Positions 4,277-32,556 of a stretch of DNA of 64,000 nt are shown in pieces. Within the stretch, counting starts at the first letter, position 1. Each line of letters starts with the position of its first letter. The translations under genes were made by a program, and so were the position numbers. The notes below the pieces were generated by a model, which searched no databases, was not told where the DNA came from, and saw nothing but the letters and a program-made list of their open reading frames with translations. Source of the DNA: Geodermatophilus marinus (GTDB lineage Bacteria > Actinomycetota > Actinomycetes > Mycobacteriales > Geodermatophilaceae); the NCBI RefSeq assembly GCF_003428645.1, contig NZ_QVQH01000020.1:1-64000 (forward strand), written 5' to 3'.

Positions 4277-4283
4277 GCCGCGG

Positions 4284-4838
4284 GTGACCCGGATCGTCTC
4301 CGGCGCCGCACGCGGGCGCCGGCTGAAGGTCCCGCCGTCGGGGGTGCGGCCCACCGGCGAGCGGGCGCGCGAGGCGCTGTTCAACAGCCTGGGCAGCCTG
4401 CTGGACCTCGAGGGCGCGACCGTCCTCGACCTGTACGCCGGCTCGGGGGCGCTCGGGCTGGAGGCCCTGTCCCGCGGCGCGGACGGCGTGGTCCTCGTCG
4501 AGAACGCGCCGCGGGTGCTGCCGGTGCTGCGGGCCAACCTCGCCGCCGTCGGGCTGCCCGGCGGGCGCGTGGTGGTCGGCTCGGTACCCGCGGTCGTCGC
4601 CGGCCCGCCGCCGGCGCGCTTCGACCTCGTGCTCGCCGACCCGCCGTACGCCACGCCCGCCGCCGGGGTCGTCGCCGTGCTGGGATCCCTGGTCAGGGGC
4701 GGGTGGCTGGCCGAGGGCGCCGTCGTCGTCGTCGAGCGGCCGGCGCGCGAGGAGCCGTGGCCCTGGCCGACACCCCTGCGCGGACTGCGCGATCGACGCT
4801 ACGGCGAGGCCGTGCTCCGGTACGGTCGCTGTCCGTGA
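4284..4838 (+). CDS. rsmD: 16S rRNA (guanine966-N2)-methyltransferase RsmD
   Basis: A 184-residue class I SAM-dependent methyltransferase that modifies G966 of 16S rRNA in the 30S subunit. The N-terminus MTRIVSGAARGRRLKVPP is typical of RsmD. The SAM loop is LDLYAGSGALGLEALSRGA (about 49-67), and the N-methyltransferase catalytic motif DPPY sits at about 119-122. It starts with GTG seven nt after recG, and its TGA overlaps the coaD GTG (GTGA). The rsmD-coaD pair is conserved across bacteria. Confidence 0.95.
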   Translation: MTRIVSGAARGRRLKVPPSGVRPTGERAREALFNSLGSLLDLEGATVLDLYAGSGALGLEALSRGADGVVLVENAPRVLPVLRANLAAVGLPGGRVVVGSVPAVVAGPPPARFDLVLADPPYATPAAGVVAVLGSLVRGGWLAEGAVVVVERPAREEPWPWPTPLRGLRDRRYGEAVLRYGRCP

Positions 4839-5317
4839 GACGTGCGGTCTGTCCCGGGTCGTTCGACCCCGTCACCAACGGGCACGTCGACGTCATCACC
4901 CGGGCGGCGGCGCTCTACGACGAGCTCGTGGTGGCCGTCCTGGTGAACCCCGGCAAGGCCGGGTTGTTCACCGTCGAGGAGCGGATGGCGCTGCTGCGCG
5001 ACGCGGTCGCCGGCCTGCCCAACGTCACCGTCGACAGCTTCTCGGGCCTGCTGGTCGACTACTGCCGCGCCCACGACGTCCCGGTGATCGTCAAGGGCCT
5101 GCGCGCCGTCTCGGACTTCGAGTACGAGCTCCAGATGGCGCAGATGAACCGCGAGCTCGCGGGGATCGAGACGCTGTTCGTACCGACCGCGCCGCAGGTC
5201 GGGCACCTGTCCTCCAGCCTGGTCAAGCAGATCGCCACCTTCGGCGGGGACGTCTCCAGCCTGGTGCCCAAGGCCGTGCTCGACCGGCTCGTCGCCGCGC
5301 GGGGGGAGCGGTCGTGA
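4835..5317 (+). CDS. coaD: Phosphopantetheine adenylyltransferase
   Basis: A 160-residue protein, exactly the usual CoaD length. It transfers AMP from ATP to 4'-phosphopantetheine in coenzyme A synthesis. The nucleotidylyltransferase T/HxGH motif appears in GSFDPVTNGHVD (about 8-19), and the ISSTxxR-type motif as HLSSSLVKQ (about 126-134). I chose the GTG at 4835 because it gives the standard VRRAVCPGSFDPVT N-terminus and a GTGA overlap with rsmD. A longer frame exists upstream but lies inside rsmD. Its stop overlaps the next gene's GTG. Confidence 0.96.
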   Translation: MRRAVCPGSFDPVTNGHVDVITRAAALYDELVVAVLVNPGKAGLFTVEERMALLRDAVAGLPNVTVDSFSGLLVDYCRAHDVPVIVKGLRAVSDFEYELQMAQMNRELAGIETLFVPTAPQVGHLSSSLVKQIATFGGDVSSLVPKAVLDRLVAARGERS

Positions 5318-6000
5318 CGGAGGTCGTCTACCGCCTCTACGAGACCGTCGACGAGCTCAGCAGCGTCATCGAGAACGCCCGCAGCGTGCCGATGTCGGGC
5401 TCGTGCATGGTCCCCCGCGACCACCTGCTCGACCTGCTCGACGACCTCCGGGAGAACCTGCCCGACGAGGTGCACAAGGCCGGGGCGATCGTCGAGCAGC
5501 GCACCGAGATCCTCCAGCAGGCCCAGGCGGAGGCCGAACGGCTGACCGGCCGCACCCGCAGCGAGAGCGAGCAGGTCGTGGTGGCCGCCCGGCGGCAGCG
5601 CGAGGAGATCCTCGGCACCGCCCGGCGCCAGCGCGACGACCTGCTGGCCCGCGCGCAGGCCGAGGTCGAGGACCTGCTGGCCCGGGCCGAGGAGGAGGCC
5701 GAGCGGATCGTCGAGGAGGCCCGCCGGCACCACGAGGCGGTCCTGGCCGACGCGCAGGTGCAGCAGGCCGAGCTGCTCGCCGCCGCGCAGGCCGAGCACG
5801 ACCGGCTGGTCACCGAGACCGAGGTCTACCGCAGCGCCGTCGAACGCGCCGACGAGGTCGGCGCGCAGAGCCAGGCCGACGCCGCCCGCGTGCGCGGCGA
5901 GGTCGACGAGTACGTCGACACCCGCCTGGCCGACTTCGGCACGACGCTGGAGCGCATGCTGCGCTCGGTGGAGAAGGCCCGCGGCGCGCTGCGCGGCTGA
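5314..6000 (+). CDS. sepIVA: DivIVA-like septal protein SepIVA
   Basis: A 228-residue protein that matches my recollection of mycobacterial SepIVA (Rv2927c): an N-terminal YRLYETVDELSSVIENAR segment, a PMSGSCMVPR turn, a long charged coiled coil (about 45-190), and the C-terminal VDEYVDTRLADF signature. In mycobacteria SepIVA is an essential cytoplasmic factor for polar and septal envelope growth. It follows coaD with a GTGA overlap and precedes yceD-rpmF-rnc, the same neighbourhood as in Mycobacterium, which supports the call. It could also be labelled simply 'DivIVA domain protein'. Confidence 0.82.
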   Translation: MTEVVYRLYETVDELSSVIENARSVPMSGSCMVPRDHLLDLLDDLRENLPDEVHKAGAIVEQRTEILQQAQAEAERLTGRTRSESEQVVVAARRQREEILGTARRQRDDLLARAQAEVEDLLARAEEEAERIVEEARRHHEAVLADAQVQQAELLAAAQAEHDRLVTETEVYRSAVERADEVGAQSQADAARVRGEVDEYVDTRLADFGTTLERMLRSVEKARGALRG

Positions 6001-6126
6001 GAGGCCCCTCCCGGCCCGGAGCCCGGTCCGCACCGATCGGGTAGTCTCGACGTCCGGTCCGGCTGCCGGTCCCGCACCCGGCGGGTCCGCCCGGTCACCT
6101 CCCCGCTGCCTACCGCGAGTACCGAC

Positions 6127-6786
6127 ATGCCTGCCGCACCGACGCCCCGTCCCGGCGCCGCGTCCCCGGACGCCCGGCGCCCCTCAGCCGACCCGTGGCG
6201 CGTGGACCTGCGCGAGCTCGGCCGGCGGGCCGGCTCCCTGCACGAGCTCGAGCGGAGCATCCCGGCGCCGGCGGACTGGCGGGTCGAGCTCATCGGCGTC
6301 CCCGAGGGAGCGCCGATCGACCTGCGGCTGCGGCTGGAGTCGGTCATGGAGGGCGTGCTGGTCTCGGGCGAGGTCGACGCCCCCGTGACCGGGTCCTGCG
6401 CGCGGTGCCTCGAACCGATCGAGGAGACCCTCGAGCTCGACGTCCAGGAGCTGTTCGCCTACGAGGGCAGCACCACCGAGGCGACCAGCGAGGAGGACGA
6501 GGTCCGGCGCGTCGAGGGCGACCACCTCGACCTCCAGCCCATGGTCCGCGACCTCGTCGTCCTCAGCCTGCCGCTGGCGCCCACCTGCACCGAGGACTGC
6601 TCCGGGCTGTGCGCCGACTGCGGCCAGCGGCTCGACGAGCTGCCGGCCGACCACGCGCACGAGGTGACCGACCCCCGCTGGGCCGGGTTGGCCCAGCGCT
6701 TCGGCGTCGGCCCGGGTGCCCCGCAGGCCGACCGTCCCACTCCCGCACCGGGCACCCCCGGTCCGGACAACCCAGAGGAGAACTGA
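6127..6786 (+). CDS. DUF177/YceD family protein (23S rRNA accumulation)
   Basis: A 219-residue YceD-family protein. The core (about 25-190) has the Cys pair in [10 protein letters not shown] and a second Cys cluster [14 protein letters not shown]; these CxxC sets are typical of the family and may bind zinc. The Pro-rich tail (about 195-219) looks disordered. It directly precedes rpmF with a 2-nt gap, the near-universal yceD-rpmF pairing, and the family is known to affect 23S rRNA/L32 levels in E. coli and plants. A 126-nt gap from sepIVA contains nothing distinctive. Confidence 0.88.
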
Positions 6787-9455: not shown

Positions 9456-9490
9456 CCCGCCCGCCCCTGAACTGCCGGGGGCGGGGCGGG
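9456..9490 (+). terminator. G+C-rich hairpin between the small coiled-coil gene and smc
   Basis: CCCGCCCGCCCC (9456-9467) is almost perfectly complementary to the G-rich run at 9477-9490, with one bulge and a loop of about 9 nt. It lies 40 nt after the upstream stop and just before the smc promoter region. It fits a factor-independent or hybrid terminator without a U tract. Confidence 0.45.
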
Positions 9491-9513
9491 CGACCGGCTA
9501 AGGTCCGGTACTC

Positions 9514-12500
9514 GTGCACCTGTCGAGCCTGACGCTGAAGGGCTTCAAGTCCTTCGCGTCCCCGACGACGCTGCGGCTCGAGCCCGGCATCACCGCCGTC
9601 GTCGGCCCCAACGGCTCCGGTAAGTCCAACGTCGTCGACGCCATCGCCTGGGTCCTCGGGGAGCAGGGCGCGAAGAGCCTCCGCGGCGGCAAGATGGAGG
9701 ACGTGATCTTCGCCGGCACCGCCGGCCGCCCCGCCCTCGGCCGGGCCGAGGTCACGCTCACCATCGACAACACCGACGGCGCCCTGCCGATCGACTACAC
9801 CGAGGTGTCGATCACCCGCCGCATGTACCGCTCCGGTGAGAGCGAGTACGAGATCAACGGCGACAAGGTCCGCCTGCTCGACGTCCAGGAGCTGCTGAGC
9901 GACTCGGGCATCGGGCGGGAGCAGCACGTCATCGTCGGGCAGGGGCAGCTCGACGCCGTCCTCTCCGGCCGCCCGGAGGACCGCCGCGCCTTCGTCGAGG
10001 AGGCCGCCGGCGTCCTCAAGCACCGCAGGCGCAAGGAGAAAGCGCTCCGCAAGCTCGACGCGATGCAGGCCAACCTCGACCGGCTGGCCGACCTGACCGC
10101 CGAGCTGCGCCGCCAGCTCAAGCCCCTGGGGCGGCAGGCCGAGGTGGCCCGCCGCGCCGCCGGTGTCCAGGCCGACCTCCGCGACGCCCGGCTCCGGCTG
10201 CTCGCCGACGACCTGGTACAGCTGCGGGAGGCGCTGGAGCGCGACGTCGCCGACGAGGCCGCGGCGCGTGCCCGCCGCGCGGTCGTCGAGGCGCAGCTGG
10301 CCGAGGCCGCGCGCCGGGAGGCCGCGCTCGAGTCCGCCCTGGCCGCCGACGCGCCGCGGCTCGGGGCCGCGCAGGAGACCTGGTACCGGCTGTCGGCGCT
10401 GGGGGAGCGGTTCCGCTCCACCGCCCAGCTGGCCGCCGAGCGGCACCGGCACCTCTCGGCCGCCCCCGCGGCACCGGCCCCCGGCCGCGACCCCGACCAG
10501 CTCGACGCCGAGGCCGAGCGGGTGGCCGCCACCGAGGCCGAGCTGGCCGCCGGGCTGGCCGCGGAGCGGGAGCGGCTGTCGGCCGCCGTCACCGAGCGGA
10601 CCGCGGTCGAGGCGGCGCTGACCGAGGCCGAGCGGGCCTGGGTGGCCGCCGCGCGGGCGCTGGCCGACCGCCGGGAGGGGCTGGCCCGGCTCTCCGGCCA
10701 GGTCGCCGCCGCCCGCTCCCGCGTCACGGCCGGCGAGGCCGAGATCGAGCGGCTCACCGCCGCCGCCGCCGGGGCGACCGAGCGCGCCCAGGCCGCCGCG
10801 GACCGGCTCGCCGCGCGGCGCGCCGAGGTGGGCGACCCCGAGGACGCCGACGTCCGGCTCGTCACCGCGCACGCCGACGCCGTCACCACGCACGCGGAGG
10901 CCGCCCGCCAGGTCACCGAGCTCACCGCCGCCGAGCGGGCCGCCGAGCGCGACCGCGCCTCCTGGCAGGCCCGCCGCGACGCCCTGGCCCTCGGGCTGGC
11001 GCCGGCCGACGGCGCGGCCGCGGTGCTGGCCGCCGCGCTGCCCGGGGTGCAGGGCCCGGTCACCGAGCAGATCACCGTGGCCCCGGGCGCGGAGCTCGCG
11101 GTCGCCGCCGCGCTGGCCGGCCTGGCCGACGCGCTGGTCGTGGGCTCGGTCGCCGAGGCCGCCGCCGCCCTGGCGCACCTCAAGGACACCGGCGCCGGGC
11201 GGGCCGGGCTGCTGGTCACCGCCGGGCTGCCCGCCCTGCCCCGGGAGGGCTGGCCCGAGCTGCCCGAGGGGGCGCGCTGGGCGCTGGACCTGGTGCAGGC
11301 GCCCGGGGAGCTGGCGCCCGCGCTGGCCCGCGCGCTGGACCGGGTGGCCGTCGTCGCCGACCTGGCCGCCGCCGTCGGGCTGGTGACCACCCACCCCCGC
11401 GTCCGGGCGGTGACCGCCGACGGGGACCTGGTGGGCGCCGACTGGGCGGCCGGCGGGCAGGCCGACGCGCCCTCCGGGTTGGAGGTGCGGGCCCGGGTCG
11501 ACGAGGCCGAGCGGGAGCTGGCCACCGCCGCCGCCCGCGCCGCGGAGCTCGCCGACCGGCTGGCCGCCGCCCGGGAGACCGCCCGGCAGCGCTCGGCCGA
11601 CGTCGACGCCGCCCTCGCCGCCCGCCAGGCGGCCGACCGCACCCGCTCGGCTGCCGCCGCCCAGCTGGCCGAGCTCGGCGCCGCCGCCCGCTCCGCGAGC
11701 GCGGAGGCCGAGCGCTCGACCGCGGCCCGCGGGCGCGCCGAGGAGGCCCTCGAGCAGGCCCGGGGGGCGCTCACCGCGCTGGCCGAGCGGCTGGCCGGGG
11801 CCGAGGCGGCACCGGTCGAGGACGAGCCCGACCCCGCCGAGCGCGACCGGCTGCGGCTGGAGACCGCCGCCGCCCGCCAGGCCGAGACCGAGGCCCGGCT
11901 GGCCGTGCGCACCGCCGAGGAGCGTGCCCGCTCGCTGGCGGGCCGGGCCGAGTCGCTGCGCCGCCAGGCCCGCCAGGAGCGGGCCGCCCGGGAGCGGGCC
12001 GCGGTGGCCCGGGCCGCCCGGCAGCGGGGCGCGGCGGTGGCCGCCCGGGTGCGCGCCGGCGCGGAGGCGGCGCTGACCGCGCTGACCGACTCCCTGGCCC
12101 GTGCCGCCGCCGAGCGCGACGAGCTGGCCCGGGTCCGCAGCACGCGGGAGGCCGAGCTGTTGGAGGTGCGCACCGCGGTCCGCGCGGCGACCGCGGAGCT
12201 GGAGCGGCTCACCGACGAGGTGCACCGCGACGAGGTCGCCCGCACCGAGCAGCGCTACCGGATCGAGTCGCTCGAGGCCAGGGCCGCCGAGGAGTACGGG
12301 GTCGACCTGCCGACCCTGGTCGCCGAGTACGGGCCGGCCGCCCCCGTGCCGCCGTCCCCCGCCGACGTGGCCTCCGCCGAGGCGGCCGGGCAGGAACCAC
12401 CGGCCCCGACCCGGTACGACCGGGCCGCCCAGGAGCGGCGCGCGGCGCGGGCCGAGCGGGACCTCGCCACGCTCGGCAAGGTCAACCCGCTGGCCCTGGA

Positions 12501-20118: not shown

Positions 20119-21782
<1,664 letters not shown>

Positions 21783-21790
21783 AAGGACCC

Positions 21791-21990
21791 CGTCCTCCTC
21801 ACCGTGGAAGGACCCCGTCCTTCCCGCCCTTCGCGAGCTCAGGGCGGTGCCCTGGACGGGGCCGCGGCGAGCCTCGGGACGGGGCCGCCCGTCCTCCTCA
21901 CCGTGGAAGGACCCCGTCCTTCCCGCCCTTCGCGAGCTCAGGGCGGTGCCCTGGACGGGGCCGCGGCGAGCCTCGGGACGGGGCCGCCCG
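21791..21990 (+). repeat. Two-copy 99-bp tandem repeat carrying hairpin elements (glnK-glnD spacer)
   Basis: Copies run 21791-21889 and 21890-21988 and look identical along their length. Each has a hairpin element at 21810-21863 (second copy 21909-21962): an arm GGACCCCGTCC, a CCGCCCT/AGGGCGG inner stem, the loop TCGCGAGCTC and a closing arm GGACGGGGCC. A partial left arm also directly follows the glnK TAG (21785-21795). Each copy also holds a segment at 21864-21886 whose exact reverse complement recurs at 62062-62084. The remaining spacer to 22164 holds only the glnD RBS region. Confidence 0.85.
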
Positions 21991-22164
21991 TCCCCACCCC
22001 GCGCACGCTCGGGGGCGGGACCCTGCAAGGGGGGCCGAGAACACCCGTCGGCCGGGGTGGCGGAGCCCCGCCACCCCGGCCGACGCCGTCCCGGGGTACC
22101 GATCCACGACAGCGATCCGGCACACGCCGCCGCACCGCGGCGCACCGCAGACCGAGGGGGACCC

Positions 22165-24525
22165 GTGCTCGACACCGAGGCGCTGCCCGCGCTGCCGCGG
22201 GCGCGGCGGGCGGAGGCGCTGGAGGCCTGGCTGCGCGGCCTGCTCGAGGACGCGGCCGCCGGGACACCGCCGCCGCGGAGCCGCCGGGGCGGTCCGCCCC
22301 GCACCGGCACCGACGGCCTGGCCCTGGTGGCGGTGGGCAGCCTGGGTCGCCGGGAGCCCCCGCCGTACGGCGACCTGGACCTGGTCCTCGTGCACGAGGG
22401 ACGGCCGGAGATCGCCGCCCTCGCCGACGCCGTCTGGTACCCCGTCTGGGACGCCGGCCTGCGGCTCGACCACTCGGTGCGCACCGTCGCCGAGGCGGTC
22501 ACCACCGCCTCGACCGACGTGAAGGCCGGTCTCGGGCTGCTCGACGCGCGCTTCGTCGCCGGGGACGCCGACCTCGCGGCCGCCCTGCGCACCGCCACCC
22601 TGGCCAGCTGGCGGCAGTCGGCCGCCCGGCTGATGCCGCAGCTGCGGGACCTGCGCCGGGGCCGCGCCCGCCAGGTGGGGGAGCTGGCCTTCCTGCTCGA
22701 GCCCGACCTCAAGGAGGCCTACGGCGGCCTGCGGGAGGGCCAGGTCCTGCGCGCCGCGGCCGCCGCGCAGCTCGCCGACGAGCCCTCGGCCGAGGTCGGG
22801 CAGGCGTACGCGTTCCTGCTCGACGTCCGCGACGAGCTGCGCCGCCGGACCGGCCGTCCGGCCGACGTGCTGGTCCGGCAGGAGCAGCGCCCGGTCGCCG
22901 CCGCGCTCGGGCTGGCCGACGAGGACGCGCTGCTGCGCGAGGTGAGCCTGGCCGGCCGGCGGCTGGCCTTCCTCGCCGACGAGACGTGGCGGCGGGTCGA
23001 GGCCGGCCTCGAGCGCCGCCCCCGCGGGCGCTACCGCCGGGTGCGTCGCGAACCGCTGGCCGAGGGCGTGGTGCGCCAGGGGGACGAGGTGGTCCTCGCC
23101 CGGGACGCCCGCCCGGCCGGGGACCCGGGCCTGGTGCTGCGCGGGGCCGCCGCCGCCGCCCGCGCCGACCTCCTGCTGTCGCCGTACACGCTCAAGGTCC
23201 TCGCGGTGCACTCCCCGCCGGTGCCCGAGCCGTGGCCGGCCGAGGTCCGCTGGAACTTCCTGCGGCTGCTGGCCAGCGGGCGCGCCGCCGTCCCGGTGCT
23301 CGAGCAGCTCGACCAGGAGGGGCTGCTGGTCCGCCTGCTGCCGGAGTGGGACCGGGTGCGCTCCCTCCCGCAGCGCCACCCGTGGCACCGCTACACCGTC
23401 GACCGGCACCTGGTGGAGGCCGCGGCGGCCGCGGCCGAGCTGACCCGGGACGTCGACCGGCCGGACCTGCTGCTGGTCGGTGCGCTGCTGCACGACATCG
23501 GCAAGGGCTGGCCGGGCGACCACAGCGTCGTCGGGGCGCCGGTCGCCGGGCGGGTCGCCGCACGGATGGGCTTCGCGCCGGCCGACGTCGCCACGCTCAC
23601 CGCCGTCGTCCGCCACCACCTGCTGCTGCCCGACATCGCGGTCCGCCGGGACATCGACGACCCGGCGACGGTCGAGCGGGTGGCGGCGACCCTCGGCCAC
23701 GACCCGGCGCTGCTGCAGCTGCTGCACGCCGTGGCGCAGGCCGACGGCGCGGCGACGAGCACCTCGGCCTGGTCGCCGTGGAAGGCCCACCTGGTGGCCG
23801 CGCTGGTGGCCCGCGTCCAGGCGCGGATCGGCGGCTCCGCCGCGCCCGACACCGAGCCCGTCCTGCACCCGGGGGATCCCGCCCCGGGGGTGGAGGCGGA
23901 CGGGGCGGTGACCGTGACCGTGGAGGACGTCGCCGACGGCCAGCAGGTGACCTTCCGCGCGCCCGACCGCCCGGGGCTGTTCAGCTGCCTGGCCGGCGTC
24001 CTCGCGCTCAACCAGCTCGACGTCCGGGCGGCCAAGGTCAACACCGACGGCTCCCGCGCCACCGCGGTGTTCGCCGTCCGCCCGCGCTTCGGCCGACCGC
24101 CGGTGCCCGCGATCCTGGCCGACGCCGTGCGGGCCGCACTGGAGGGGACGCTGCCGCTGTCGGCCCGGCTGCGGCAGCGCGAGGCCGACTACCGGCAGGA
24201 CGACGGCCGCGCGGCCCCGCCCCGCATCTCCTGGCACAACGGCGAGGTCACCGGCGACGCCACCGGCATCGTGGAGGTGCGGGCCGGCGACCGGGCCGGC
24301 CTGCTCTACCGGCTCACCGCGGCGCTGGCCGCCGAGGGCCTCGACGTCACCTCCGCGCGGGTGGAGACCCTCGGGGCCGACGCCGCCGACCACTTCTACG
24401 TGACCGACGCCTCCGGGACGCCCATCGACGGGGAGCAGCGGGCGCGGGTGGAGGCGGCGCTCGCGGCCGCGGCCCGGGGTGCGGTGCCCGACCCGGTGCC
24501 CGGGGGCGCGGACACGCCGGGCTGA
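22165..24525 (+). CDS. glnD: PII adenylyl/uridylyltransferase GlnD
   Basis: A 786-residue bifunctional nitrogen sensor. The nucleotidyltransferase motif GSLGRREPPPYGDLDL is at about 58-73, an HD hydrolase domain has LLHDIGKGWPGDHS (about 440-453), and two ACT domains for glutamine sensing lie at about 582-650 and 699-755. It modifies GlnK Tyr51 under nitrogen limitation and reverses this when glutamine is high. The GTG at 22165 has GAGGGGGA upstream; longer frames run only into the repeat array. It shares the amtB-glnK operon but is separated by 382 nt of repeats. Confidence 0.95.
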   Translation: MLDTEALPALPRARRAEALEAWLRGLLEDAAAGTPPPRSRRGGPPRTGTDGLALVAVGSLGRREPPPYGDLDLVLVHEGRPEIAALADAVWYPVWDAGLRLDHSVRTVAEAVTTASTDVKAGLGLLDARFVAGDADLAAALRTATLASWRQSAARLMPQLRDLRRGRARQVGELAFLLEPDLKEAYGGLREGQVLRAAAAAQLADEPSAEVGQAYAFLLDVRDELRRRTGRPADVLVRQEQRPVAAALGLADEDALLREVSLAGRRLAFLADETWRRVEAGLERRPRGRYRRVRREPLAEGVVRQGDEVVLARDARPAGDPGLVLRGAAAAARADLLLSPYTLKVLAVHSPPVPEPWPAEVRWNFLRLLASGRAAVPVLEQLDQEGLLVRLLPEWDRVRSLPQRHPWHRYTVDRHLVEAAAAAAELTRDVDRPDLLLVGALLHDIGKGWPGDHSVVGAPVAGRVAARMGFAPADVATLTAVVRHHLLLPDIAVRRDIDDPATVERVAATLGHDPALLQLLHAVAQADGAATSTSAWSPWKAHLVAALVARVQARIGGSAAPDTEPVLHPGDPAPGVEADGAVTVTVEDVADGQQVTFRAPDRPGLFSCLAGVLALNQLDVRAAKVNTDGSRATAVFAVRPRFGRPPVPAILADAVRAALEGTLPLSARLRQREADYRQDDGRAAPPRISWHNGEVTGDATGIVEVRAGDRAGLLYRLTAALAAEGLDVTSARVETLGADAADHFYVTDASGTPIDGEQRARVEAALAAAARGAVPDPVPGGADTPG

Positions 24526-24612: not shown

Positions 24613-24828
24613 ATGACCGACCGCTTCGCCGTCGCGACCGCCGAGGGGCGGGTCTGGGCCTGCGCGGTGTGCGGCGACGACCGCGAGTTCGTGCAGCCCC
24701 CGTGCGCCGACGGCCACACCGACGACGGCGGCGAGTGCCCCGACTGGGCGTGCGGCGAGTGCGGCGCCGCCGTGTGGGCCGGGGCGCCGGCGCCGGCCGC
24801 CGCCACGCGGGTGACGCGCGCGGCCTGA
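24613..24828 (+). CDS. Small Cys-rich putative zinc-ribbon protein
   Basis: A 71-residue protein with paired cysteines in VWACAVCGDD and CPDWACGECGAAVW (about 17-20 and 43-50) plus one lone Cys, consistent with a zinc ribbon. It has an Ala/Thr-rich tail. The ATG is preceded by GGGAGAGGAG. A small CGGTGG/CCACCG hairpin sits between it and glnD. I do not recognise a function; it begins the block of accessory genes between glnD and ffh. Confidence 0.6.
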   Translation: MTDRFAVATAEGRVWACAVCGDDREFVQPPCADGHTDDGGECPDWACGECGAAVWAGAPAPAAATRVTRAA

Positions 24829-24847: not shown

Positions 24848-25894
24848 TCACCGCACGGTGAGCGCCACCCGGCCGTGGTCGGCCAGCGCGCCGTCGGTGA
24901 CGAGGGCGACCCAGCCGCCGCGCAGCAGCACGACCTCGATGACCTCGTCGACGAGGTCGTCCACGACGTCGGGGTGGTCGACGTCGTCGGCCGGGGTGAC
25001 GAAGTCCCCGTCCGGGCTGAGCCGGGCGGGGAAGACGTAGCCCTCCTCCACCGCGAGCATCTCCGGCCGTTCCCGCCGCGCCGCCAGCCACACCGCCTCG
25101 ATGCCGTCGACCACCGCGTGCCGCGACCGGCGGCGGTCGAGCAGCGCGAGGGCCTCGTCCTGCCGGGAGAGCAGGTAGGCGTCCAGCACCTCGCGGATCC
25201 GCGGTACCAGGTCGGGCAGCGGGGCCCGGGTCAGGCCCCCGGTGACCGTGCCCGCGAGCCGGCCGAGGTTGCGCGACACCCGGCGGAAGCGGGCCAGCGT
25301 GCGCTCGGCGCCGACCAGCACGAGAGGCGCCGGGTGCAGCCGCAGGTGGGTGCCCAGGGACTCGTCGATCCGGCGGAGGAAGGCGTCCCGGCCCGTGCCC
25401 TCGGCCAGCACGGGGAAGGGTGAGCGGGGCGGGGGGCGCAGGTCCTCGGCCACCCCCTCCAGCAGCCGCGCCTCCCGCTCGGAGAGCAGGAGCACCAGGT
25501 GCCGGGGGGTGCGGTGCAGGGCGCGGACCAGGTCGCGGGTGGCGAACGTGGGGTCGACGACGACCCGGTCGGCCACCGGCACGGGGAGCCGGACCACCTC
25601 GCGGACCGCGGGGTTGACGAACACCGCGATGCCGTGACCGGTCGGGCCGGCCCGCGCACCGGCGACGGTCTCGGCCAGCGCGTCGGCGAGCTCGGCCCCG
25701 GCGCGGCCGTGCCCGGCGAGCCGGGTGGCGGCTCCGGCGGCCAGGCGCCGGAGCGTCGCGGCGTCGGCCTCGGTCATCCGCGGCGCGGGCCGGGTGGTGG
25801 CCAGCAGGGAGACGCAGGGGTCGGTCCGCACGGACTGCAGCAGCAGCACCTGCTCGGGGGTGGGCCAGCCGACCCGCCCGGGCGCGGCCGTCAC
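24848..25894 (-). CDS. Bacterial archaeo-eukaryotic release-factor-like (baeRF) protein
   Basis: A 348-residue protein that resembles the baeRF families (eRF1/Pelota-related). It has an N-terminal PCVSLLATTRPAP start, a central domain with HLVLLLSEREARLLEG (about 134-149), VLVGAERTLARFR (about 192-204), a long helical segment, and a C-terminal L7Ae-like part with VLLRGGWVALVTDGALADHGRVALTVR-type strands. The exact subfamily (perhaps baeRF3) is uncertain. Release or rescue activity in bacteria is only proposed for the family. Its GTG overlaps the stop of the USP-like gene (GTGA), so they form a two-gene operon. Confidence 0.6.
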   Translation of the reverse strand: MTAAPGRVGWPTPEQVLLLQSVRTDPCVSLLATTRPAPRMTEADAATLRRLAAGAATRLAGHGRAGAELADALAETVAGARAGPTGHGIAVFVNPAVREVVRLPVPVADRVVVDPTFATRDLVRALHRTPRHLVLLLSEREARLLEGVAEDLRPPPRSPFPVLAEGTGRDAFLRRIDESLGTHLRLHPAPLVLVGAERTLARFRRVSRNLGRLAGTVTGGLTRAPLPDLVPRIREVLDAYLLSRQDEALALLDRRRSRHAVVDGIEAVWLAARRERPEMLAVEEGYVFPARLSPDGDFVTPADDVDHPDVVDDLVDEVIEVVLLRGGWVALVTDGALADHGRVALTVR

Positions 25895-26316
25895 CGGGGC
25901 GCGCCCACGACGACGGCGTCGAGCCGGCGCGCCAGCCGGGCGGCCGTGCGCTCGAGGACCCGCCGGCGCCGCCGCCCGGACAGGCCCGGGCAGCGGTGCA
26001 GGGCGACGGTCGCGGGCACGCCCGCCGCCGCCAGCGCCTGCCGGACCTCCGCGCGCAGGTCGTGGGCGAGGCGGTCGGAGAGCTCGACCAGCAGGGCCGC
26101 GAGCTCGGCGTCGACGGCGGAGGGCGGTCGGGGGAGGACCACGGCGACGTGCAGCGGTGCGCGGCCGCGCCGGGCCGCGGCGAGCGCGGGGCCGAGGTCG
26201 GCGGCGACGTCGCTCCGGTCGGTGACGACGGCGAGCAGTCTCCGGGGCCCCGGGCGGGGCGGGGGCGCGCCGCGCTGGGGTGCGGGGGCCGGTGGGGGCG
26301 GGCCGAGGACGGTCAC
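25891..26316 (-). CDS. Universal-stress-like (Usp-fold) protein
   Basis: A 141-residue protein. After a Pro-rich start it shows a Usp-like alpha/beta pattern: RRLLAVVTDRSD (about 27-38), PLHVAVVLPRPP (about 51-62), a long amphipathic helix, VPATVALHRCPG (about 95-106) and a final ARRLDAVVVGAPR. The usual ATP-binding GxxG(S/T) ending is shortened. The GTG at 26316 has GGGAG 8 nt upstream. It is co-transcribed with the baeRF-like gene. Function beyond the fold is not predictable. Confidence 0.5.
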   Translation of the reverse strand: MTVLGPPPPAPAPQRGAPPPRPGPRRLLAVVTDRSDVAADLGPALAAARRGRAPLHVAVVLPRPPSAVDAELAALLVELSDRLAHDLRAEVRQALAAAGVPATVALHRCPGLSGRRRRRVLERTAARLARRLDAVVVGAPR

Positions 26317-26451: not shown

Positions 26452-26462
26452 GCGAAATTCGC
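26452..26462. promoter_or_regulatory. GCGAA-A-TTCGC palindrome between divergent USP-like and wHTH genes
   Basis: A perfect inverted repeat of 5 bp around one base, in an unusually A+T-rich patch of a divergent spacer. It lies 136 nt before the - strand start and 97 nt before the + strand start. This is a plausible binding site for the neighbouring wHTH protein. Confidence 0.35.
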
Positions 26463-26558: not shown

Positions 26559-26897
26559 GTGACCGGGACCTCTCCGGGGTGGACCTTCCTGTCCAACCAC
26601 GGGCACGTGCTCGTCAGCCTCGCCGCGGACCCCGAGGTCCGCATGCGGGACATCGCGACCCGGGTGGGCATCACCGAGCGGGCGGTGCAGATGATCGTCG
26701 GCGACCTGGAGCAGGCGGGCTACGTGGTCCGCGAGCGGGTGGGGCGCCGGAACCACTACACGGTCGTGGACCGGGGGCGGTTCCGGCACCCGCTGGAGCA
26801 GCACGTGCGGATCGGGGACTTCCTCGCGCTCGTGCTGCGGGGCGCCGGGGGAGGGGCGTCGGTCAACGGGGCCGAGCGGGCCGGCCGGCGGGCGTGA
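26559..26897 (+). CDS. Small winged helix-turn-helix regulator (MarR/ArsR-like)
   Basis: A 112-residue protein. It begins GWTFLSNHGHVLVSLA, then a winged HTH: DIATRVGITERAVQMIVGDLEQAGYVVRERVGRRNHYTV (about 32-70). An unassigned basic tail follows a HPLE segment. I recall this 'WTFLTNHAHVL' family as common small actinobacterial regulators, but the ligand is unknown. It converges with the heliorhodopsin gene (7-nt gap) and diverges from the USP-like/baeRF operon, which it may control. Confidence 0.75.
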   Translation: MTGTSPGWTFLSNHGHVLVSLAADPEVRMRDIATRVGITERAVQMIVGDLEQAGYVVRERVGRRNHYTVVDRGRFRHPLEQHVRIGDFLALVLRGAGGGASVNGAERAGRRA

Positions 26898-26904
26898 GCG
26901 CCCG

Positions 26905-27696
26905 TCACCCGGCCAGCGAGCCGGCGAAGACCTGCCAGGCGAGCGCGCTCTTGGCGACCAGGCTGAGCACCAGGTAGGCCTTCTCGCCGTAGGCGTAGCT
27001 GCGCCACGGGCCGACCTCGCGGTACTGCAGCCACTGGTTGACCGCGAAGCTCGTGAAGAACGCGAACAGCGACACGAAGATCCCGTAGACGAAACCCGGT
27101 ATCTGCTCGGCCCCGACGATGTTCGCGGTGATCGCCACCCAGGGCGCCGCCCCCGCGATGCACCCGAACCAGAACGGGAGCATCGTCGTCCCGGCGCGTC
27201 CGGGCGGGTTCGCCCGCTCCTGCAGCCAGCCGAACAGGATCATCGCGACGTTGGCGCCGGCGATGCCGATCAGCGCGGCGAGGCCGGTGATGCCGGTGTA
27301 GGCGCAGATGAGCAGCACCATGATCGTCGCGCTGAGCGAGTACTCCAGCCAGCGGAACCGGTTGATGCCGCGGCGCAGGTCCTCCTCGTAGCGCCGGCGC
27401 AGCACCGTGGCGGTGACCAGGTGGTCCACCGCGGCCAGCCCCAGGAAGACCGCGATCGCCGCGCCCACGCCGACGTCGACGAGCGGCTCCGGCGCCGGCA
27501 CCGCCGTGCCCGGCGGCCCGGCCGGGAACGACGACGTCACCGTGATCGCGAAGCCGCTGGCCAGCACGAGGACGGCGACGGCCTGCCCGGCGTGCAGCAC
27601 CGCCAGTGCGAGGTTCCAGCGCCGGAGGCCGGCCAGCCGTGCGTCGTCCACCCCTGTCGCGACCGGGGCGGGGGCGGGGGCGGCGGTGCGGGTCAC
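26905..27696 (-). CDS. Heliorhodopsin
   Basis: A 263-residue seven-helix membrane protein of the heliorhodopsin family. Diagnostic features: RRWNLALAVLHAGQ in helix 1 (His35), DHLVTA (His92), the counterion region RWLEYSLSATIM in helix 3 (Glu118), PFWFGCIAGAAPW in helix 5, and the retinal lysine in LVAKSALAWQVF of helix 7 (Lys249). The N-terminus is short and charged, in line with the cytoplasmic N-terminus of the family. The GTG start has AGGAGAA 6 nt upstream. Heliorhodopsins bind retinal but mostly do not pump ions; signalling or enzyme-regulating roles are proposed. No retinal-synthesis gene lies in the window. Confidence 0.9.
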   Translation of the reverse strand: MTRTAAPAPAPVATGVDDARLAGLRRWNLALAVLHAGQAVAVLVLASGFAITVTSSFPAGPPGTAVPAPEPLVDVGVGAAIAVFLGLAAVDHLVTATVLRRRYEEDLRRGINRFRWLEYSLSATIMVLLICAYTGITGLAALIGIAGANVAMILFGWLQERANPPGRAGTTMLPFWFGCIAGAAPWVAITANIVGAEQIPGFVYGIFVSLFAFFTSFAVNQWLQYREVGPWRSYAYGEKAYLVLSLVAKSALAWQVFAGSLAG

Positions 27697-27956
27697 GGCG
27701 TTCTCCTGGAGCGGGGAGGGTCCGGGCCGGTCGGCCCCATGGTGCCCCGCCGCCTGCGCTGCCGGCCCGGCGCTCCGGCGCCTCCGCGGCGCACCTCCGG
27801 GTGGAGTGGCCCCTCGTGGTCCCACCCCGGCGGTGCCGCGCTCGATACCCTGGCGGTCAGGAGGCGCGAGGGTCCGGCCCTGACCGGGCCCGTCGCCCGT
27901 GTCGCCGATCGGTTCGACCGGCAGGCCGCGCCCGCGAGCTCTGACGAGGACGTGCT

Positions 27957-29543
27957 GTGTTCGAGACCCTCTCCGACCGCCTGGACACGGTCTTCAGCGG
28001 CCTGCGCGGCAAGGGCCGGCTGACCGACGCCGACATCGACGCCACCGCGCGCGAGATCCGCATCGCGCTGCTGGAGGCCGACGTCGCGCTGCCCGTCGTC
28101 CGGTCGTTCATCAGCGCCGTCAAGGAGCGGGCGCGCGGGGCCGACGTGTCGCAGGCGCTCAACCCCGCCCAGCAGGTCATCAAGATCGTCAACGAGGAGC
28201 TCATCGAGATCCTCGGCGGCGAGACCCGGCGGCTGCGCTACGCCAAGCAGGCGCCGACGGTCATCATGCTGGCCGGTCTGCAGGGGTCCGGTAAGACGAC
28301 GCTGGCCGGCAAGCTCGGCCGCTGGCTCAAGGCGCAGGGCCACACCCCGCTGCTCGTGGCCTGCGACCTGCAGCGGCCCAACGCGGTCAACCAGCTGTCC
28401 ATCGTGGCCGGGCAGGCGGGGGTCGCCGTCTACGCCCCCGAGCCCGGCAACGGCATCGGCGACCCCGTCCGGGTCGCGGCCGACTCGCTCGAGCACGCCC
28501 GTCGCACGATGCACGACGTCGTCGTCGTCGACACCGCCGGCCGGCTGGGCATCGACGCCGAGCTCATGGCCCAGGCCGCCGGCATCCGCGACGCCGTCCG
28601 GCCGGACGAGACGCTGTTCGTCGTCGACGCGATGATCGGCCAGGACGCGGTCACCACCGCGGAGGCCTTCCGGGACGGCGTGGGCTTCAGCGGCGTCGTC
28701 CTCACCAAGCTCGACGGCGACGCCCGCGGTGGTGCCGCGCTGTCGGTCCGCTACGTCACCGGCCAGCCGATCATGTTCGCCTCCACCGGCGAGAAGCTGG
28801 CCGACTTCGACGTCTTCCACCCCGAGCGGATGGCCTCGCGCATCCTCGGGATGGGCGACGTGCTCACCCTCATCGAGCAGGCCGAGCAGGCCTTCGACGC
28901 CGACCAGGCCGAGCGCATGGCCGGCAAGCTCGCCTCCCGCGAGGGCTTCACCCTCGAGGACTTCCTCGAGCAGATGATGGCGATCCGCAAGATGGGGCCG
29001 ATCGCCAACCTGCTCGGGATGCTGCCCGGCGCCGGGCAGATGAAGGAGCAGCTCAAGCAGGTCGACGACCGCGACCTGGACCGGACGGCGGCCATCATCC
29101 GGTCGATGACCCCCGAGGAGCGGGTCAACTCCAAGATCATCAACGCCTCGCGGCGGGTGCGCATCGCCAACGGCTCCGGCGTGACGGTCACCGAGGTCAA
29201 CCAGCTGCTGGAACGGTTCGCGCAGGCCCAGAAGATGATGGGCCAGATGGCCGGCAGCATGGGCCTGCCCGGGATGGGCCCGATGTCGAAGAAGGCCCGG
29301 GGCCGGCAGATGCAGGCCCAGTCGAAGAAGGGCAGGAAGGGCAAGGGCAAGGGCGCCGCCGCGAAGAAGGGCGGCGGGCCCGCCCGCCGGCCCGCCGGCG
29401 TGCCCGGCCTGCCCCCCGGCGCCGGCCTGCCCGGCGGCGGGTTCCCCGGCGGGCAGATGCCGTCGCTGCCGCCCGGCCAGGGCCTGCCCGACCTCAGCAA
29501 GCTGGACTTCAGCAAGTTCGGGGACGAGCGGCCCGGCCGGTGA
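27957..29543 (+). CDS. ffh: Signal recognition particle protein Ffh
   Basis: A 528-residue SRP54 GTPase that binds 4.5S RNA and nascent signal sequences. The N domain starts FETLSDRLDTVFSGLRGKG; the G domain has GLQGSGKTTLAGKLG (about 106-120), DTAGRLGIDAELM (about 191-203) and TKLDGDARGGAAL (about 250-262). The methionine-rich M domain spans about 330-440, followed by a Lys- then Gly/Pro-rich tail to 528, long even for actinobacteria. A TACCCT hexamer at 27846-27851 may be its -10. It overlaps the next gene (GTGA). Confidence 0.97.
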   Translation: MFETLSDRLDTVFSGLRGKGRLTDADIDATAREIRIALLEADVALPVVRSFISAVKERARGADVSQALNPAQQVIKIVNEELIEILGGETRRLRYAKQAPTVIMLAGLQGSGKTTLAGKLGRWLKAQGHTPLLVACDLQRPNAVNQLSIVAGQAGVAVYAPEPGNGIGDPVRVAADSLEHARRTMHDVVVVDTAGRLGIDAELMAQAAGIRDAVRPDETLFVVDAMIGQDAVTTAEAFRDGVGFSGVVLTKLDGDARGGAALSVRYVTGQPIMFASTGEKLADFDVFHPERMASRILGMGDVLTLIEQAEQAFDADQAERMAGKLASREGFTLEDFLEQMMAIRKMGPIANLLGMLPGAGQMKEQLKQVDDRDLDRTAAIIRSMTPEERVNSKIINASRRVRIANGSGVTVTEVNQLLERFAQAQKMMGQMAGSMGLPGMGPMSKKARGRQMQAQSKKGRKGKGKGAAAKKGGGPARRPAGVPGLPPGAGLPGGGFPGGQMPSLPPGQGLPDLSKLDFSKFGDERPGR

Positions 29544-30628: not shown

Positions 30629-31873
30629 TCAGGCCGCCGGCGGGCCCAGCTCCAGGGTGACCGCCGTCCCCGCCGGTGACGAGGCCAGCCGCAGCTCCCC
30701 GCCGGCGCCCTCGGCGGTGCGGCGGGCGATGTCCAGGCCCAGGCCGGTCGAGCCCCCGCCGCTGTGGCCCCGGACCGGCGCCGCCGCCGGCAGCCCCGGA
30801 CCGTCGTCGGCCACCTCGACCTCCGCCCCGCCACCGGCCCGGGCCCGGACGGCGACCCGGAGCCCGGCGCCCTCGGGGGTGTGGGCGAAGACGTTGCCGA
30901 GCAGGGCGTCCACGGCCGCGCCGAGGTCGGCGGGGGAGACCCGCACGGGCAGCTCCCCGTCGGGCAGGTCCACGGCCACCGGGCGGCCCTCCTCCTCGGC
31001 GAGCACCGTCCAGAACCGCACCCGCTCGCCGACCACCGCCACGGCGTCGCACCCGGCCCCCACCCCCTCGCGGACCGTGCGCCGGGCCTCCGAGATCACC
31101 TCGTCGATGCCGCGGCGCAGCGCGTCGACGTCGCCGGACAGCCGCTCGCGGTCGGCCGGCGGGAGCGCCTCGACGTCCAGCCGCAGCGCGGTCAGCGGCG
31201 TCCGCAGGCGGTGGGCGAGGTCGGCGGCGGTCTCCCGCTCGGCCGCCAGGAGCTCGCCGATGCGACCGGCCAGCCGGTTGAGCGCCGTCCCGACCTCGCG
31301 CACCTCCGGCGGGCCGTCCGGTGCCACCCGTGCGTCGAGGTCGCCGCTGCCCAGGAGGTGCGCGGTCGCGGCCAGGTCGGTGACCGGCCGGGTGAGCGAC
31401 CGGGCCAGCCGGTCGGCGACCACCAGCGCGAGGACGAACAGGACGACACCCAGACCGGCCAGGACCAGCCAGGTGCGGGCGACGCCGGCACGCAGCCGCT
31501 CCGCGGGCACGAAGACCTCGACGACGGCGGTGCCCTCGCCCCGCTCGACCGGCTGGAGCAGCTGGACGCCCGTCCCGGTCGCCGTCAGCCGCGGGCTGGC
31601 CGGGTCCACGTCGTCGGCGAGGGCGCCCTCGGTGCCCAGCCACGCCCCGTCGGGCCAGCGCACGCCCACACCGGTGAGCCCGACGACCGCGGCGGCGACC
31701 TCCTCGCGGTCGTCGAGGCCGACGGTCGGGACGAGGGCCTGCACCCGGGCCTGGGCGGCGTCGAGGGCGCTGGCCTCGGCGACCCGGGTGACGAGCAGGG
31801 CCGCCGGCACGAGGAAGGCCAGGAGGACCACCGAGGTGGTGGCCGCCACCAGCAGCGTGATGCGCCGCCTCAC
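30629..31873 (-). CDS. Two-component sensor histidine kinase
   Basis: A 414-residue membrane kinase. It has a TM helix at about 5-27, an extracellular sensor region (about 28-135), a second TM (about 138-160), a HAMP domain, the H-box DLAHRLRTPLTAL (about 218-230), N-box ALLGNVFAHTPEG, and G-boxes DDGPGLP and GGSTGLGLDIARR. Its GTG start overlaps the response-regulator stop (GTGA). The signal is unknown; the neighbouring exported protein on the opposite strand may be its target or ligand-binding partner. Confidence 0.92.
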   Translation of the reverse strand: MRRRITLLVAATTSVVLLAFLVPAALLVTRVAEASALDAAQARVQALVPTVGLDDREEVAAAVVGLTGVGVRWPDGAWLGTEGALADDVDPASPRLTATGTGVQLLQPVERGEGTAVVEVFVPAERLRAGVARTWLVLAGLGVVLFVLALVVADRLARSLTRPVTDLAATAHLLGSGDLDARVAPDGPPEVREVGTALNRLAGRIGELLAAERETAADLAHRLRTPLTALRLDVEALPPADRERLSGDVDALRRGIDEVISEARRTVREGVGAGCDAVAVVGERVRFWTVLAEEEGRPVAVDLPDGELPVRVSPADLGAAVDALLGNVFAHTPEGAGLRVAVRARAGGGAEVEVADDGPGLPAAAPVRGHSGGGSTGLGLDIARRTAEGAGGELRLASSPAGTAVTLELGPPAA

Positions 31874-32556
31874 GGCTCGGGCCCGGCCAGCCGCACGCCG
31901 ACCCCGCGCACCGTGTGCAGCAGCCGCGGCTGCGACGCCGACTCGCCCAGCTTGCGGCGCAGCCACGACAGGTGGACGTCGACGGTCCGGTCCGACCCGC
32001 CGTAGGGCAGCTGCCACACCTCGCCCAGGAGCTCCCGCTTGGTCACCACGGTGCCGGCGCGGGCGGCGAGGTAGGCGAGCAGGTCGAACTCCTTCGGGGA
32101 CAGCTCGACCGCGCGCCCGGCCCGGGTGACCCGGCGGCTGCGCGGGTCGACGGTCAGGTCCCCGACGGTCACCGCGGCCGGCCCGCCCTCCGCCCCGGCG
32201 GACCGCCGCAGCACCGCTCGGATGCGGGCCTCCAGCTGGCCGGCCGAGAAGGGCTTGACCACGTAGTCGTCGGCCCCCGCGTCCAGGGCCTGCACCATCC
32301 CGGCGTCGTCGTCCCGGGCGGTGGCCACGATGACGGGGACGGCGGACACCGCGCGGAGCATGCGCAGCAGCTCCCCGCCGTCGAGGTCGGGCAGGCCGAG
32401 GTCCAGGACGACGAGGTCGGGGCGCTCCTCGACCGCCTGGCGCAGACCGGTGAGCGCGGTGCCGGCCGAGGCGACGGCGTGGCCGCGCTCGCGCAGCGCC
32501 CGGATCAGGGCGGTGCGGATGCGCTCGTCGTCCTCCACGACCAGGAGCCGGGCCAC
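31870..32556 (-). CDS. OmpR/PhoB-family response regulator
   Basis: A 228-residue regulator. The receiver has acidic Asp9/Asp10 (VVEDD), phosphoacceptor Asp52 (VVLDLGLPD) and the conserved Lys in DYVVKPFS (about 101). A winged-helix DNA-binding domain follows (about 130-225) with LLGEVWQLPYGGSDRTVDVHLSWLRRKL-type sequence. It is the first gene of the kinase operon. A TAGCGT hexamer lies 6 nt before the GTG, so transcription appears leaderless. Confidence 0.95.
   Translation of the reverse strand: MARLLVVEDDERIRTALIRALRERGHAVASAGTALTGLRQAVEERPDLVVLDLGLPDLDGGELLRMLRAVSAVPVIVATARDDDAGMVQALDAGADDYVVKPFSAGQLEARIRAVLRRSAGAEGGPAAVTVGDLTVDPRSRRVTRAGRAVELSPKEFDLLAYLAARAGTVVTKRELLGEVWQLPYGGSDRTVDVHLSWLRRKLGESASQPRLLHTVRGVGVRLAGPEP

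Follow-up and report, generated by a model that had tools for sequence, protein, structure and literature searches.

Heliorhodopsins have been described as regulatory partners (PMC11109279, PMC8612252). Published operons place them with TerC, photolyase, glutamine synthetase and others (PMC11109279), and a promiscuous genomic context is the published view of the family (PMC8612252). Every firm gene association helps to narrow down what heliorhodopsins do. The family itself is known, and the host of the gene analyzed here, Geodermatophilus marinus, is a soil actinobacterium of a family, the Geodermatophilaceae, with rhodopsins already described, reportedly by Tarlachkov et al. in 2020. The gene lies in a 64-kb stretch of the host genome (here called the window, 64,000 nucleotides), in which the following features were considered:

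22165..24525, plus strand: glnD, left flank of the site (profile match)
24613-24828, plus strand: 71-aa gene, left flank with glnD, between glnD and the Balon-like gene
24848..25894, minus strand: Balon-like ribosome hibernation factor (baeRF family 3), 348 aa (NF052287, PDB 8rd8)
25891..26316, minus strand: USP-like alpha/beta protein, 141 aa (fold model), with a 4-base overlap with the Balon-like gene
26452..26462, no strand: palindrome GCGAA-A-TTCGC in the divergent region between the regulator and the USP-like and Balon-like genes, proposed operator of the regulator
26559..26897, plus strand: MarR-like single winged-helix regulator, 112 aa
26905..27696, minus strand: heliorhodopsin gene, 263 aa, running from a GTG start at 27696 to a stop at 26905
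27697..27956, no strand: divergent intergenic region between heliorhodopsin and ffh, 260 bases, expected site of the heliorhodopsin promoter
27957..29543, plus strand: ffh (SRP54), right flank of the site (profile match)

The gene order was glnD (+), 71-aa gene (+), Balon-like (-), USP-like (-), regulator (+), heliorhodopsin (-) and ffh (+). The window protein is an ordinary heliorhodopsin for its family. It matched the Pfam profile PF18761 with 333.8 bits (E = 6.8e-100; cut-off, 26.7) over model positions 1-242 of 242 and the NCBIfam equivalog NF038020 'HeR' with 279.3 bits against a cut-off of 100, both scores being far above chance level. The choice of start is supported by an AGGAG ribosome-binding site six bases 5' of the GTG codon. 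In a phmmer search the protein matched the structures of 48C12 (E ~1.6e-70); the window stretch FRWLEYSL paired with FRWVEYSL of 48C12, and SLVAKSALAWQ was identical in both. The counterion and lysine of 48C12 are Glu107 and Lys241. When the AlphaFold model of the window protein (pLDDT 85.6, pTM 0.80) was compared with known structures using Foldseek, the best ten matches were all heliorhodopsin chains, with TM scores of 0.84-0.86 (query length) over 241-254 alignment columns. Seven helices and an SxxxK motif in helix 7 are the family criterion according to PMC8612252; the motif was found as Ser245-Leu-Val-Ala-Lys249, and Glu118 occupies the place of the helix 3 Glu counterion.

Conservation was assessed in an 88-row alignment of the window protein, 80 loci fetched with peptide patterns out of at least 434 loci matched, and 7 family loci. 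The alignment did not include 4 duplicate rows, the split gene of genome G085 or the relic of genome G006. His35, His92 and Glu118 were identical in 88/88 rows, with the invariance of Glu118 being partly selection because this residue sits within a peptide pattern used for fetching the 80 loci; His35, His92 and Lys249 lie outside the patterns. Lys249 and Ser245 were identical in 87/88 rows, and the remaining row had a gap. The description of the gene in the earlier note was confirmed: the coordinates are correct, although the gene is read from the minus strand, and Pfam, NCBIfam, phmmer and Foldseek agree on a heliorhodopsin; Lys249 and Glu118 are intact, the helix-1 and helix-2 histidines are present as His35 and His92, and the structure comparison that it had proposed returned the fold of 48C12 (TM 0.86).

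Among the matches listed, the closest named relatives of the window protein were from Modestobacter and Blastococcus (87-88% identical). A survey of 112 Geodermatophilaceae genomes, the G. marinus genome included, gave heliorhodopsin matches in 14 (12 full, one split in G085 and one fragment in G006) and type-1 rhodopsin (PF01036) matches in 52. The split gene of G085 (L095) runs over two frames and could reflect decay or an assembly error. In the whole host genome PF18761 matched once and PF01036 not at all, and a type-1 rhodopsin was rejected as a partner in the host on the latter ground. Two records of the plasmid collection had a heliorhodopsin match; one of them, a Lactococcus petauri plasmid record of 10.5 kb, carries an annotated heliorhodopsin (39% identical; NZ_CP141705.1:4161-4913).

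The neighboring proteins were also largely as the earlier note had characterized them (a small regulator, a USP-like and a baeRF-like protein). The regulator has a MarR-like winged helix, and its gene converges on the heliorhodopsin gene with 7 bases between the stops. The Balon-like protein matched NF052287 with 207.8 bits, under the equivalog cut-off of 330, and is thus a homologue rather than an equivalog. It matched chain B of PDB 8rd8, the structure of Balon (PMC10901736), with an E value of 1.1e-19 over residues 20-148 and 171-344, so that homology extends over both halves of Balon. The USP-like protein matched no Pfam family, Usp included, at E 0.1; its fold model was weak (pLDDT 62.6), and the best 16 Foldseek matches were all titled universal stress proteins, one of them the USP domain of KdpD, with none below an E value of 0.001. 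In a scan with anti-phage models, the regulator gave only weak winged-helix matches, and three further proteins gave no match. Balon-like genes were present in 14/112 family genomes (E 1e-20) and the regulator family in 39/112 (E 1e-12). A regulator copy lay within 1.3 kb of the Balon-like gene in 13/14 carriers and was divergent from it in 11/14. The winged-helix regulator divergent from the USP-like and Balon-like genes is a genuine unit.

The palindrome at 26452 was the sole GCGAA-N0-9-TTCGC in the 64-kb window (rate over all loci, 0.014 per kb), in a post hoc count of a motif that had been read by eye after the sequences were seen. Two Streptomyces loci (L050, L064) also carried the motif ahead of their homologue of the regulator gene, and none of nine Geodermatophilaceae family regions checked did so; it is at most a candidate operator. 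An operator common to regulator and heliorhodopsin was rejected, as the palindrome stood before the heliorhodopsin in 0/101 heliorhodopsin-bearing loci, duplicates included. Between 26200 and 28000, no sigma-70 promoters or intrinsic terminators were found.

We lean, by a little, towards regarding the gap between glnD and ffh as a tolerated insertion site where the heliorhodopsin and the unit arrived separately, so that their closeness is meaningless. Indeed, the contents of the site differ among relatives. In the 80 relatives compared (up to 4.5 kb before ffh, out of 106 with an ffh match), the end of glnD was present in 79/81 regions, the window counted, and a Balon-like gene (at least 65% identity) stood at the site in 8/80 (G014, G020, G021, G050, G052, G061, G089 and G091) without a full heliorhodopsin there. 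The whole unit was found in 6 of those 8; G014 had no regulator at the site, and G020 had no USP-like gene at the threshold used (USP-like matches, 7/80, were counted at 40% identity or more over at least 130 residues, and those of ~30% identity were dropped because composition correction was off). Position therefore proves little, and neighbor conservation was rejected as proof of function because of these sites and because the context of other heliorhodopsin loci varies. The suggestion in the earlier note that the neighbors hint at the role of the heliorhodopsin is not sustained by their position, given the 8/80 sites, the convergent regulator and the operator count of 0/101.

Heliorhodopsin context in general was little conserved, the largest neighbor cluster comprising 13 loci (80 of at least 434 loci plus 8 family loci), and orthologues within the family stand elsewhere. 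In G061, which belongs to the genus of the host, a V/A-type ATPase run (L230:875-10279; D, a weak G-like match under the cut-off, I, c, E, C, F, A and B) ends with the heliorhodopsin gene (9488-10279), which shares 4 bases with the gene of subunit B; genes for V/A-ATPase A, B and I turned up at none of the other heliorhodopsin loci in a set of 91 that contained some duplicates. The G091 gene lies tail to tail with a type-1 rhodopsin gene, 51 bases apart (L124:7551-9233), and that of G089 adjoins a sensor kinase and a response regulator. However, a relic matching heliorhodopsin residues 221-262, with the lysine kept, was found at the same site and in the same orientation in G006, a genome of another genus (L156:283-408). 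Heliorhodopsin has thus stood at the glnD-ffh site in two genera and has decayed in one, and its placement may be old. The genome-level co-occurrence described below also speaks against an entirely fortuitous arrangement.

Two further features of the surroundings were observed. The genes amtB, glnK and glnD adjoin the site (window 20119-24525), and in two actinobacterial MAG loci (L063, L069) heliorhodopsin and glnD share a strand, with glnD 2.4 and 2.2 kb downstream; regulation of glutamine synthetase by a heliorhodopsin has been published (PMC9529153). Past ffh and ~3 kb upstream of the heliorhodopsin gene, positions 30629-32556 encode a histidine kinase of the HAMP kind together with a response regulator of the OmpR type; two-component genes have been reported as enriched near heliorhodopsins (PMC8612252).

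Heliorhodopsin (14/112) and Balon-like genes (14/112) were found together in 7 genomes (Fisher p 0.0002). In a Pagel test the dependent model won (LR 16.1, p 0.003) on a tree of one protein, GlnD, which covered 79/112 genomes and on which some fitted rates were at the allowed bound. Off the tree were G056 (Balon-positive, without heliorhodopsin; no glnD found), G044 (short region) and 31 genomes with neither gene. Simulations without coupling reached an LR of 12.1 in 0/123 cases and 16.1 in none. The result held without the host genome (LR 13.4, p 0.0096) and without the relic holder G006 (p 0.017). Heliorhodopsin and the Balon-like gene thus co-occur beyond the tree-based null. The corresponding p values for heliorhodopsin with Blh, the RPE65 family and type-1 rhodopsin were 0.29, 0.45 and 0.21, and for the regulator 0.007 (all 39 genomes) or 0.051 (strict 14). 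Balon-like genes gave 0.73 with type-1 rhodopsin, 0.54 with Blh and 0.39 with RPE65. Type-1 rhodopsin was coupled with Blh (8e-8), as expected, and with the regulator (0.002).

One explanation of this pattern is a functional link between the heliorhodopsin and the winged-helix, USP-like and Balon-like unit, in which light or light stress sensed by the heliorhodopsin would tune entry into or exit from ribosome hibernation. The genes are adjacent in the window, and the association persists on the tree. In Nocardioides glacieisoli, TerC (3732-4760), a Balon-like gene (4757-5920; 51.6% identical to that of the window by tblastn) and heliorhodopsin (5989-6768) form an operon-like run on one strand, and in Streptomyces sp. 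HM190 a regulator homologue directly precedes the heliorhodopsin on the same strand. We nevertheless consider a tie of this kind unlikely. In 6/7 double carriers the two genes are not neighbors (five have an intact heliorhodopsin elsewhere, and G006 has only the relic), the Balon-like gene occupies the site in relatives that lack heliorhodopsin there, and N. glacieisoli is the only case among 87 other heliorhodopsin loci (surrounding stretch; two being second copies of named loci) with a Balon-like gene nearby. The regulator family also tracks type-1 rhodopsins, which suggests that lifestyle may explain part of the coupling, and the Balon-like gene was picked for testing because it is next door to the heliorhodopsin in the window. 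Varied placement, even within one genus (G061), is the main counterargument to membership in a dormancy unit, and it agrees with the promiscuous context published for the family (PMC8612252).

It is equally doubtful that, in some actinobacteria, heliorhodopsin provides a dormancy switch with its light input, working with the unit so that light conditions on dry soil would set the time of ribosome parking or release. On this reading, the unit and heliorhodopsin are kept together beyond descent and are sometimes joined in a locus or operon. Overall, membership in a dormancy unit is hypothetical, the evidence for it being real though modest, and the association with dormancy genes is a new testable hint. 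No paper on heliorhodopsin together with hibernation was found in the open-licence literature, and neither 'release factor' nor 'universal stress' occurs in the main text of PMC11109279. If true, coupling to the Balon-like protein would offer a concrete, testable output, namely, ribosome state and regrowth after dormancy.

For the retinal source that the earlier note had wanted sought in the rest of the genome, the results pointed both ways: carotenoid genes were present, Blh gave no match, and the single carotenoid oxygenase was ambiguous. The host carotenoid cluster (L115) contains CrtE- (polyprenyl-synthase), CrtI- and CrtB-type genes and two lycopene-cyclase domains, a pair of the beta (Yc/Yd) or the C50-epsilon (Ye/Yf) type. 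No Blh/Brp was detected in the host genome by the Pfam model. That the model had overlooked one was rejected, since a family-specific alignment (A2) that matched 3/3 known carriers and 0/13 other genomes, the host among the 13, gave no match either. Across the family, 33/112 genomes had a Blh match. The one RPE65-family gene of the host (G000:C67:199889-201232) encodes a protein that scored best with NF052295, '8'-apo-carotenoid 13,14-cleaving dioxygenase' (541 bits, under the cut-off of 675). RPE65-type genes were found in 2/14 heliorhodopsin holders (Pagel p 0.45, as above), and with this lack of co-occurrence a role of the oxygenase as dedicated retinal maker was not supported. The G091 genome, which holds both rhodopsins, had neither a Blh nor an RPE65 match.

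These results raise the possibility that the protein is an apo-opsin in nature, devoid of chromophore because the genome has no retinal-forming enzyme. With no Blh match and an RPE65-family gene that looks 13,14-cleaving, this could be argued, but we regard it as rather improbable. MtCCO has been reported to cut carotenoids at 13,14 and also at 15,15', giving some retinal (PMC5133782), and the actinobacterium Aurantimicrobium minutum to contain endogenous retinal without blh or diox1 (PMC7734400), so that a missing Blh does not refute function. Likewise, Blh gave no match in 21/52 family genomes with type-1 rhodopsin, an indication that Geodermatophilaceae have a different way of making retinal or take it up. 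Lys249 is kept, as is the lysine even in the G006 relic. Judging from the carotenoid genes, the double cleavage by MtCCO and the retinal of A. minutum, chromophore supply in the host appears plausible. The locus adds to the cases in which a genome with no Blh match encodes an intact retinal protein, and it bears on retinal synthesis in actinobacteria.

No transport activity is known for 48C12. It is very improbable that the window protein moves protons in light as the viral V2HeR3 does, for although one heliorhodopsin with transport has been published (PMC9448325) and the G061 orthologue closes a V/A-ATPase run, the closest solved relatives of the window protein are 48C12 chains and no ATPase gene was found among the window genes scanned.

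Taken as a whole, the window gene probably encodes a canonical retinal-binding regulatory photoreceptor of the Geodermatophilaceae that acts through a partner protein. The seven-helix membrane protein would hold retinal on Lys249, with Glu118 as the predicted counterion, and its N terminus would be cytoplasmic (inverted topology), as judged from the heliorhodopsin family alone. A light-driven change of shape may modulate the partner protein instead of pumping ions. The protein is the only match in the genome to the two rhodopsin families searched. The gene seems to have a transcript of its own, started on the side next to ffh. The retinal would most likely come from an endogenous ring-ended carotenoid, cut by the MtCCO-like oxygenase or by another enzyme.

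The described systems closest to this locus differ from it in distinct ways. The neighbor at 24848-25894 is homologous to the ribosome hibernation factor Balon (PMC10901736; PDB 8rd8) and lies in a stress-type setting, but it falls below the curated equivalog cut-off and its ribosome binding is only putative. The operon heliorhodopsins of PMC11109279 are of the same family, and a TerC vicinity recurs in 5/91 of the loci examined here, whereas the window gene stands in no evident operon. The 48C12 heliorhodopsin (PDB 6su3, 6su4, 6uh3, 9ljj) shares the fold and the lysine and counterion stretches, with 44-48% identity in the Foldseek alignments. In contrast to 48C12, the window protein has a longer N-terminal tail (the alignment begins at residue 21 versus residue 9 of 48C12) and belongs to another organism and another gene context. 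Ten further heliorhodopsins from the Geodermatophilaceae (Modestobacter, Blastococcus) are 84-89% identical and form one clade with the window protein (support, 0.996), while that of G073, a MAG, is 72% identical and falls outside this clade. Among the 14 heliorhodopsin holders, the ffh sites of which were all read, the host alone carries a full-length gene at the ffh-glnD site.
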